The position numbers were made by a program, and so were the translations under genes. Under the pieces are notes generated by a model. That model had not been told where the DNA came from and did not search any database. It saw nothing but the letters and a program-made list of their open reading frames with translations. From Burkholderiaceae bacterium (GTDB taxonomy: Bacteria > Pseudomonadota > Gammaproteobacteria > Burkholderiales > Burkholderiaceae): 64,000 nt of DNA. The stretch is taken from assembly GCA_947450225.1 (NCBI GenBank), contig CANFUO010000004.1, positions 1 to 64,000 of the forward strand, read 5' to 3'. Below are positions 22,040 through 23,759 of the stretch, piece after piece. Position 1 is the stretch's first letter. Each line of letters begins with the position of its first letter.

Positions 22040-22065
22040 TTCTTTTGAAAATTGGTATCGAAAGT

Positions 22066-22761
22066 ATGCCAATCCTTGCCATCGACACTTCATCGCAGTG
22101 GTGTTCGGTGGCAATTTATTTTTCTGATGGCACACATCTATCCCGACACGAAAAAGTAGGCAATCAAGCCAGCCAAGTACTTTTAACTTGGATCGATGAG
22201 CTGATGCATGAGACCAATTTAACTTGGAAAGATCTGCAAGCCTTGGCAGTCTCACAAGGCCCAGGTGCTTTTACTGGCATTCGGCTTGGGTTAGGTGTTG
22301 CACAGGGAATTGCGTATGCACAGCAAAAGCCATTAATTCCTATTCCGAGCTTAGACGGCATGATTGCTTATCAATTATTTATCAAAGGAATGAAGGTCCT
22401 CCCATTGCAAGGTATTCATGCAATGATTGATGCGCGCATGCAACAAGTTTATTTTGCGTCATATCAAATCGGCCAAGATAAAACAATTCATCGTGATTCT
22501 GGTGTGCAACTCATTAATCTCAACGATTTGAACTTTAATCAGCAGGATATTTACTTCGCCTATGACCTCGATGGATATATTCAAGAAGGAATCATTGCGT
22601 CACCGCAAATATATGAAGCCTCTACGCCACATGCTTTAGGTATAGCCTATCTGGCTTCATTAAAGCAAGATACAGAGCAATTTCTACCAAAGGACTGCCA
22701 ACCCCTTTATATACGTGATCAAGTAGCCTTGAGCATAGCGCAACGGGCAAACAAGAACTAA
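22066..22761 (+). CDS. tsaB: tRNA threonylcarbamoyladenosine biosynthesis protein TsaB
   Basis: The product (231 residues from the ATG at 22066) opens with PILAIDTSSQWCSVAI and carries SQGPGAFTGIRLGLGVAQG, both diagnostic for TsaB. TsaB is the scaffold partner of TsaD in the t6A modification of tRNAs reading ANN codons. A TTG seven codons upstream is in frame but adds residues absent from the family. It is followed by rimI, a conserved neighbour. Confidence 0.93.
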   Translation: MPILAIDTSSQWCSVAIYFSDGTHLSRHEKVGNQASQVLLTWIDELMHETNLTWKDLQALAVSQGPGAFTGIRLGLGVAQGIAYAQQKPLIPIPSLDGMIAYQLFIKGMKVLPLQGIHAMIDARMQQVYFASYQIGQDKTIHRDSGVQLINLNDLNFNQQDIYFAYDLDGYIQEGIIASPQIYEASTPHALGIAYLASLKQDTEQFLPKDCQPLYIRDQVALSIAQRANKN

Positions 22762-22783: not shown

Positions 22784-23254
22784 ATGACAAATTTTCGTTT
22801 TAAGATCATGGAACAAGGAGATTTAAAAAGGGTCTTGGAGATAGAGTCCATCTCACACTCACACCCATGGACGGAAAAAAACTTTTTGGACTGTATAAAG
22901 GTGCCTTATTGGAATTACGTATTCCTTGAGGAGTCTTACGAATCACCAATCATTGGTCATTGCATCGTGATGCCTGGAGTTGAAGAGTTACATTTATTAA
23001 ATATTACGATCGATCCTCGTTATCGACGCAATAAAATTGCCTCGCAAGCATTGATAGCTTTAGAGAAAATTGGTCTTGAAAAAGGGTATGCAAGAATACT
23101 GCTGGAAGTAAGGAAAAGTAATTCTTTAGCGATAGCAATGTATGAGAAATTAGCTTATCGACTGATTGGCGCTAGAAAAGATTATTATCCTATGGATGAT
23201 AATCATCAAAAGCTTCGAGAAGATGCGATGGTAATGGAAAAGATCATTCGGTAA
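22784..23254 (+). CDS. rimI: Ribosomal protein S18-alanine N-acetyltransferase
   Basis: The 156-residue GNAT enzyme has HPWTEKNFLDCI near the N-terminus, LHLLNITIDPRYRRNKIAS for acetyl-CoA binding, and a C-terminal RLIGARKDYYP segment with the Tyr typical of RimI. It acetylates the N-terminus of S18. It follows tsaB by 22 bases and precedes a psi/UDG-like gene by four bases, so the three are likely co-transcribed. Confidence 0.92.
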   Translation: MTNFRFKIMEQGDLKRVLEIESISHSHPWTEKNFLDCIKVPYWNYVFLEESYESPIIGHCIVMPGVEELHLLNITIDPRYRRNKIASQALIALEKIGLEKGYARILLEVRKSNSLAIAMYEKLAYRLIGARKDYYPMDDNHQKLREDAMVMEKIIR

Positions 23255-23258
23255 TCAG

Positions 23259-23759
23259 ATGAATAAAGCAATACTCCTCAAAGAAATGGGTATCAGTTCA
23301 TGGAAACTGAGGGATATTAACGCTCAACCAGAAGTGCCGCCGCACAATAAAAAGTTGGAGAACAAAGGAATGAATACAGAATTCCCACTATGGACATTAA
23401 TGTATGAGGAAAGTGATTTACTGCCCTCGTTGTGGAAGGATATTCAAACAGTTGTTCAAAATTTTGGGGTCAACATTCAAGTTCTACCATTTCAACCGCA
23501 AGCAATAGCTTCAGGCCTGATTCAAGGCCAGTTGTTAATCTGCTTTGGAGAAAAATCAGGGCAGCATTATTCAGGTGAAATCACGGCAGTAGAAGGTTTA
23601 AGAGAGATTTTATTTGAAACAATGGGAGCTAATGATCAAGAAATCCCAGTCATTGTTTCCTATTCGATGAAACAAATAGCAAGCTCAGGACAAAAAAAGA
23701 AGAAGCTATGGGACGATTTGATTTTTGCTAGAAATGTTTATCTAGACACCATGTCTTAA
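23259..23759 (+). CDS. UDG-fold protein lacking catalytic motifs, possible DNA polymerase III psi (HolD)-like subunit
   Basis: The 166-residue protein has an N-terminal LLKEMGISSWKLRD (residues 6-19), like the start of HolD as I recall it (LGITQW followed by LR). Its C-terminal half reads LLICFGEKSG, then PVIVSYSMKQI and KKLWDDLIFAR. This follows the last strands of family-4/5 uracil-DNA glycosylases, where the matching Tyr-His-Pro motif would be. Here that His is absent, and no GEAPG motif is seen. HolD is known to have a UDG-like fold, and E. coli holD is beside rimI, as here. It could instead be a decayed glycosylase. Confidence 0.45.
   Translation: MNKAILLKEMGISSWKLRDINAQPEVPPHNKKLENKGMNTEFPLWTLMYEESDLLPSLWKDIQTVVQNFGVNIQVLPFQPQAIASGLIQGQLLICFGEKSGQHYSGEITAVEGLREILFETMGANDQEIPVIVSYSMKQIASSGQKKKKLWDDLIFARNVYLDTMS

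Follow-up and report, generated by a model that had tools for sequence, protein, structure and literature searches.

A candidate psi subunit of the DNA polymerase III clamp loader, probably derived from a family-4 uracil-DNA glycosylase, in a Burkholderiales bacterium

In Escherichia coli, the psi subunit (HolD) contacts the collar (domain III) of the DnaX subunits through its N-terminus, and SSB is bound by chi (HolC) (PMC3290774, PMC11044049, PMC12871192). One review places chi genes in alpha-, beta- and gammaproteobacteria and psi genes in gammaproteobacteria only, and asks whether psi has elsewhere diverged beyond detection or is truly missing (PMC3290774); a further paper calls both HolC and HolD gamma-only (PMC8092217). 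The cryptic psi of Pseudomonas aeruginosa (PA4679) is described as too divergent for sequence search and as roughly double E. coli psi in size (PMC3197488, PMC8879598). Uracil-DNA glycosylases (UDGs) are mentioned in a fourth source only as a domain of some polymerases (PMC3919608), and the vaccinia virus UDG (PMC1936997), which belongs to another UDG family and has another partner, is an analogue rather than a sign of kinship. No report of a link between UDG and psi was found in the excerpts returned by a search of the open-access literature, a search whose scope excluded the HolD crystal-structure and pseudomonad psi papers and which leaves priority uncertain.

We describe here a gene of the window (the whole stretch of DNA that was analysed, 64,000 nt) that very probably encodes the psi subunit of this bacterium's DNA polymerase III clamp loader and derives from a family-4 UDG (UDG4). 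Its features and neighbors are collected in Table 1.

Table 1. Positions in the window of the candidate psi gene, its parts and its neighbors
Feature	Positions	Strand	Basis or remark
tsaB, upstream in the same gene row	22045..22761	+	TIGR03725, 148.1 bits
rimI	22784..23254	+	TIGR01575, 97.0 bits (cut-off 86.4); frequent neighbor of HolD and psi-type UDG4
Candidate psi (HolD) gene, 166 aa + stop	23259..23759	+	Apparently UDG4-derived; neither catalytic motif left
Psi-type clamp-loader-binding peptide, residues 4-21 (LLKEMGISSWKLRD)	23268..23321	+	HolD N-terminal profile, Pfam
Place of lost UDG4 GEAPG motif, residues 49-53 (YEESD)	23403..23417	+	hhalign to Burkholderiales UDG4
C-terminal part, residues 92-163, with homology to the ends of both UDG4 and HolD	23532..23747	+	UDG4 and HolD profile alignments
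Place of lost UDG4 His-Pro, residues 136-137 (Ser-Met)	23664..23669	+	hhalign to UDG4

The reading frame is intact, its ATG lies 4 nt past the end of the rimI stop codon, and the row tsaB-rimI-candidate gene is followed by lplT on the opposite strand. The sole Pfam family seen in the protein is DNA_III_psi (PF03603; residues 3-19, E 3.9e-4), at 21.1 bits against a cut-off of 22.2 bits, which was set by curation and does not mark a feature of the biology. The NCBIfam psi model matches residues 4-19 (E 1.3e-3), and a profile of HolD N-termini gives 20.0 bits on the N-terminal region and 18.9 bits for the domain within the whole protein. Beyond the peptide, the UDG family 4 model TIGR00758 matches residues 87-154 (E 0.013; model positions 98-164 of 173), and the core aligned with its relatives meets UDG4 at E 5.5e-15 in hhalign. 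This homology covers the C-terminal half and the first core strand. In the hhalign alignments to UDG4, GEAPG is absent and YEESD is aligned there, His-Pro is absent and Ser-Met is aligned there, and the stretch between the two motif positions is shortened. An earlier note on this DNA had likened the N-terminus to the HolD clamp-loader peptide and the C-terminal half to the end of a UDG lacking GEAPG and His-Pro, and both likenesses are upheld by these matches.

Family-4 UDGs have four cysteines for an iron-sulfur cluster; the window protein has a single cysteine (residue 95). In the alignment, IPVIVSYSMKQIASSGQKKKKLWDDLIFA of the window protein stands opposite IPLIVTYHPAYLLRTLPDKAKAWEDLCLA of UDG4 and AQVASPALTDLRANPTARAALWQQI of E. 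coli HolD. A phmmer search of the PDB with the window protein gave no match. The protein thus resembles two described families in different ways. With HolD (PF03603; E. coli NP_418789.1, PDB 3sxu_B and 1em8_B, peptide 3gli_O) it shares the MGI..W..R peptide, the length class, a rimI neighbor, a core alignable by profiles over most of its length, and a holC gene in the genome; it differs in falling under the Pfam cut-off, in the order of the genes (rimI-gene in the window, holD-rimI in E. coli), and in a C-terminal half that is still recognisably UDG4, which that of E. coli HolD alone is not. With family-4, iron-sulfur UDGs (TIGR00758; PDB 1ui0) it shares the C-terminal half and the first core strand, but it has neither GEAPG nor His-Pro, one cysteine and a shorter middle.

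In all counts below, the order to which the window belongs is called Burkholderiales and the class gamma; GTDB puts Burkholderiales inside Gammaproteobacteria. The N-termini of 13 short gamma HolDs were made into a peptide profile, with which the N-terminal regions of UDG-like ORFs were scored. Left out of it were L044, the one of 16 short HolDs that has no recognisable peptide motif, and L046 and L047, which resemble UDG. At least 5 bits were reached by 14/14 sequences of the window's genus (the cut frame L015 through a fragment only) and by 49/49 gamma UDG-like ORFs (five genes counted twice). All 32 gamma UDG4s chosen by UDG4 search alone (L164, L165, L194-L223; the top-scoring UDG4s rather than a random draw) carry the psi peptide, the lowest at 7.5 bits, and this profile found it in 0/27 UDG4 controls from outside the class. 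Among the other ORFs of the fetched loci, 4/3692 reached at least 5 bits (best 6.5), and reversed N-termini gave at most 3.9 bits. On these scores, chance resemblance of the window peptide, at 20.0 bits, was rejected.

The same threshold was reached by only 8/15 proteins of family f1 and 27/85 of the order, paralogues included, because the Burkholderiales peptide is often one residue longer between Gly-Leu and Trp (GLxPxW) than that of HolD. A looser peptide expression, devised after the sequences had been seen, matches 15/15 in f1, 50/70 other strong Burkholderiales matches, 26/32 gamma UDG4s and 16/17 gamma proteins found via the psi search, against a background of 1/15 weak or paralogous matches, 0/27 controls, 22/3810 other ORFs, 2/195 reversed and 0.1/195 shuffled sequences. 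Among the 20 Burkholderiales misses are L064, whose frame is truncated where its contig stops, two unrelated fusion proteins (L096, L097), a protein of f222 (L144), and variants that have another residue for Gly or no basic residue. Furthermore, the gamma UDG4 peptides align with the HolD peptides at E 8e-16 in hhalign, and 0/100 shuffles scored as high.

A class-wide psi search led to the same proteins. From it we took 80 matches that lie wholly within model positions 1-48; matches extending further were left out, as were the window gene and the second stretches of two HolDs (G261, G378). Where a UDG4 of the same genome was listed, 49/50 of these N-terminal-only matches lay on the same strand and in the same frame, <450 nt before the UDG4 domain; 17 of the other 30 were read, and 16 of them are UDG-like (G512 is not). 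At E up to 1 this search also matches 3/14 control genomes, B. subtilis and a Bacteroides among them, so that such matches are unspecific singly; above the cut-off, E. coli alone of the controls is matched. In a scan of 10 proteins, L051 and L049 pass the Pfam cut-offs for both psi and UDG.

The resemblance between HolD and UDG4 is not confined to the peptide. With peptides cut off, HolD aligns with the gamma UDG4 core at probability 96.9 (E 1.7e-10, score 69.7), with Burkholderiales UDG4 at score 61.5, with control UDG4 at 69.0, and at 97.3 when two bridging sequences are added. All such comparisons give probabilities of 96-98 and scores of 61-97, and the controls (RimI, TsaB, UDG4 in reverse, and two queries each with 60 column shuffles) all stay at or below 21. 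Without the peptide, the 13 sequences of the window's group (A2) reach a score of 94.8 against Burkholderiales UDG4 in an alignment of 117 columns, and profile-profile alignment with the 13 HolDs, peptide cut off, gives probability 96.1 and E 3.7e-9. An HMM-HMM comparison with both families had been suggested in the earlier note, and the group proves similar to both. Against 13 short HolD-like proteins (A3), the group aligns over 140 columns and window residues 1-161, peptide included (probability 99.1, E 5.9e-19); motif-altered full-length gamma proteins (A4) match A3 at E 4.1e-22 in the region outside the peptide and A2 at E 2.1e-21.

Against the PDB, A3 finds E. coli psi (3sxu_B, E 1.7e-9), its core alone (1em8_B, E 0.0064) and the clamp-loader-bound peptide (3gli_O, E 0.013), and A4 finds UDG (1ui0, E 4e-42) and, weakly and at the N-terminus only, the psi peptide (3gli_O, E 0.23). 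The A2 profile finds type-4 UDGs only at E 0.2, ranked below an unrelated phycoerythrin chain. UDG4 profiles do not recognise E. coli HolD when it is taken alone, and the HolD-UDG4 link rests on family profiles. An AlphaFold2 model of the window protein with its three nearest relatives was poor (mean pLDDT 44, pTM 0.41). The structural neighbors that VIA-align gave for this model are generic alpha/beta folds, among them Argonaute, receiver and kinase domains, with Z no higher than 7.6, and neither UDG nor HolD was among the 50 listed.

A family search with the window protein found matches in 27/150 genomes, 15 of them within the genus, the window's own counted. The 14 other genus frames measure 169-189 aa except for one of 103 aa, and MGI..W is kept in 13 of them, the short frame being the exception. 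The peptide is the best conserved part of the window's group: 7/17 invariant columns among 13 aligned relatives fall within residues 1-15 of 166. One genus member (L021) retains His-Pro and has psi and UDG matches side by side, both slightly below their cut-offs. At the 12 loci of other genera, the frames are 273-406 aa long with GEAPG and His-Pro, and an N-terminal peptide such as LIEELGIGPVWVRR lies ahead of a linker. For the relatives, dN/dS is 0.07-0.11 in 4/10 pairs and the remaining six are saturated, including, over the whole gene, both pairs that contain the window gene; these values point to purifying selection in the relatives.

Gene position connects the two families as well. A RimI-like gene lies directly upstream of the UDG4 in 53/69 strong Burkholderiales matches and in 15/15 f1 loci, and directly upstream in 13/14 genus loci and 3/3 window-like loci. 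It lies directly downstream in 25/32 gamma loci chosen by UDG4 and in 12/13 HolD loci. RimI adjacency was seen in 2/4 loci of f222, 4/15 weak matches and 0/27 non-gamma controls; many loci in this tally carry only about 1.5 kb of flank, so that a miss in it is no proof of absence. In E. coli the two genes holD and rimI overlap, which confirms the adjacency given in the earlier note, with the order holD-rimI reversed relative to rimI-gene in the window. Since both adjoin rimI on the same side, HolD and psi-type UDG4 occupy the same slot in gammas, and the order in the window is the Burkholderiales order.

The host genome (G000) is a metagenome-assembled genome of 2.46 Mb, 91% complete. It encodes HolC on contig C33 (Pfam E 5.6e-25, above the Pfam cut-off; best NCBIfam chi match E 1.9e-38, below the NCBIfam cut-off), and the psi search found no HolD match besides the window gene, although another HolD could be missing from an assembly 91% complete. 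Both results agree with what the earlier note had proposed to look for, a holC gene and no other holD. A profile search of the same incomplete assembly gave no UDG4 match at E 1e-3, and its sole Pfam UDG match is a protein on contig C79 with GQDPYH, which we take to be the motif of family 1, Ung. In the alignment of the host HolC with E. coli chi, LNELLWSFSTEDFLPH stands opposite LDEALWARPAESFVPH, and a Trp and a Phe align with W57 and F64, the only residues of the psi-binding face that were examined. Chi F64 is described as mattering for the binding of YoaA and psi, and a second paper on chi names W57 and, as printed, P64 (PMC8092217). The partner HolC is encoded, and its psi-binding face, as judged by this Trp and Phe, appears to be kept.

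Across the class, 21/369 genomes pass the psi cut-off, 16 with frames of 127-199 aa and five with frames of 232-259 aa. UDG4 is found at 1e-5 in 286/369 class genomes overall and, read by eye, in 0/16 of the genomes with a short HolD, for which a random draw has a chance of 1.3e-11 if relatedness is ignored; 5/5 genomes with the longer psi frames also have UDG4. HolC is found in 194/200 genomes of the order and 314/369 of the class, and also matches in Caulobacter, a control genome. The six HolC-less genomes of the order are G550 and five genomes of f222, and the four f222 UDG4s that were read (L144, L226-L228; G599 is the genome left out) show no psi motif. In three of these four (L226-L228), an NLW stretch lies close to the N-terminus. 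Joint loss of HolC and peptide fits f222 but was rejected as a rule: HolC and the psi peptide are not strictly tied, because G366, G465 and G457 (58% complete) have no HolC match and keep the peptide. In two further HolC-less genomes, the peptide is weak (G162) or altered (G222).

Between UDG4 and HolD stand UDG-like proteins without a match to GE[AGP]PG, most of them with a psi-like peptide. In Burkholderiales, such intermediates lie beside rimI in f187 (L098), f186 (L110, L114), f2 (L111, L112) and the window's genus, as well as in f223 (L099), where the peptide is mostly lost, and f225 (L106, L113), where it is shifted. In gammas, L050, L054, L229-L233 and L254 lie beside rimI, and L049 and L240 have no RimI match within the locus stretch examined. 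His-Pro is retained near the end of L098, L106, L110, L113, L049, L050, L054, L229 and L254, and the motif of L054 is one letter off GEAPG (GEAPN). Because the degree of alteration differs in this way, some of these proteins may still be active as glycosylases. At the far end of the series, G176 encodes a 145-aa protein beside rimI that ends in YSPAELLRDGDLKPKTWDALKKAIRLMEA. Among nine altered gamma proteins, 5/24 invariant columns are peptide residues. By sequence features such as these, the motif-altered intermediates appear to connect UDG4 and HolD.

In each of the families f1, f2, f186, f187 and f223, an active-looking member and one with altered motifs were seen, the two of them adjoining rimI, which suggests that the catalytic motifs have been lost repeatedly; the altered member of f190 (L116) has no RimI match in its locus. 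In a tree of 124 rows made by a quick method, active UDG4s fall roughly by taxonomy with weak support, the outgroup does not lie on one side of a branch, and altered UDG4s cluster as long branches, of which the program warns. The number of independent losses can therefore not be read from the tree, and the argument for repeated loss from taxonomy is the weaker one.

We propose that the peptide (LLKEMGISSWKLRD) would bind in the collar of DnaX like the psi peptide of E. coli, and that HolC (chi), the subunit that binds SSB, would be held by the UDG4-derived alpha/beta core; the clamp loader would thereby be tied to the SSB-coated lagging-strand template. That the window protein bridges DnaX and HolC is expected from its homology to psi. 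The ancestor would have been a family-4 UDG already carrying the peptide, and probably an active one, given that intact-looking enzymes are widespread whereas altered ones occur here and there. The gene is still an intact-looking, peptide-bearing UDG4, as a rule next to rimI, in most of the Burkholderiales families sampled and in many other Gammaproteobacteria. In the window's genus, in the E. coli HolD line and in a number of further lineages, the catalytic motifs were lost with peptide and gene position kept, and catalysis may have been given up where another UDG exists, as in the host genome. Binding to DnaX and HolC, the role in the replisome and the order of these events are inferred. The earlier note had raised the possibilities that annotation misses a psi here and that psi descended from a glycosylase; at the sequence level, both are supported by the profile matches, the profile-profile alignments, gene position, genome complementarity and the intermediates.

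Three other readings of the window protein were weighed. It might be a degenerate UDG4 kept for binding DNA or uracil or for regulating repair, with no clamp-loader role and an accidental N-terminal likeness. Its clear UDG4 homology fits this, and the psi role is read from sequence while the structure model, at pLDDT 44, is uninformative. We nonetheless consider such a protein improbable, given that the peptide is the best conserved part of its group and scores 20 bits with a profile made from HolDs only, that the group matches HolD outside the peptide too, and that HolD also adjoins rimI. Even less room is left for a glycosylase that has kept its activity with an altered active site, which has the homology to UDG4 in its favor and nothing further; YEESD and Ser-Met at the motif positions, the shortened segment between them, the single cysteine and the Ung-like protein with GQDPYH in the host genome make it very nearly negligible.

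The peptide could also be a clamp-loader tether on a protein that does not hold HolC, a psi-like adaptor tying a UDG remnant or some other partner to DnaX. The genomes G366, G465 and G457, in which the peptide is kept without a HolC match, would be accommodated by such an adaptor, and intact peptide-bearing UDG4s would make sense as repair enzymes borne by the replisome. Against it, HolC is present in the host genome and almost throughout the order, the host HolC keeps the Trp and Phe aligned with W57 and F64 of E. coli chi, and the HolC-less f222 lacks the peptide motif in the four UDG4s read from its five genomes; we regard the adaptor as unlikely. The preferred reading remains that the window gene encodes psi.

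The pattern extends past the single case of the window to Burkholderiales and many Gammaproteobacteria. In most of the former and many other members of the latter, the intact-looking, peptide-bearing UDG4 is itself likely to be psi, so that uracil excision would be built into the replisome and E. coli HolD would be its worn-down remnant. For the beta group, represented here by Burkholderiales, this would give a concrete answer to the question of the missing psi: it would be a rimI-adjacent UDG4 or its stripped descendant. Psi would gain an ancestry in a repair enzyme, which would explain its wide variation in size, and the prediction follows that the clamp loader of many bacteria is accompanied by a glycosylase. 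Likening PA4679 by its description, we infer that the extra core segments of this P. aeruginosa protein are UDG remnants.

Several further frames deserve mention. In two genomes of the gamma family f15, a frame combines WLQAMGY.VY with a HolD-like end, AAKRALWPQLR (L055:700-1671, L062:397-1629); these are perhaps cryptic psi proteins of the pseudomonad type in which Tyr replaces the Trp of the peptide. In the two fusions named above (L096:37-2085, L097:100-2046), the UDG domain closes frames of 650-680 aa with an unrelated N-terminal part. Outside the gammas, one alphaproteobacterial-looking UDG4 group (L167, L168, L171, L177, L186, L190, L192, L193) has a conserved N-terminal peptide of the FYxEAGVD type. 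As an alpha psi peptide, LxFYxEAGVD was dropped for want of significance, 3/100 shuffles scoring as high against the gamma peptides and 50/100 against HolD; it could be a tether for some partner. The UDG4s of the non-gamma family f238 (L166, L169, L170, L172-L176, L178, L181, L184, L185, L187, L189, L191) have a conserved N-terminal YLR[EQ]IGV that is marginally like the psi peptide and lacks its Trp. Compared with psi-type peptides, YLREIGV was equalled by 0/100 shuffles, but over 8-9 columns only, and it hints that the arrangement of UDG4 and peptide may be older still.
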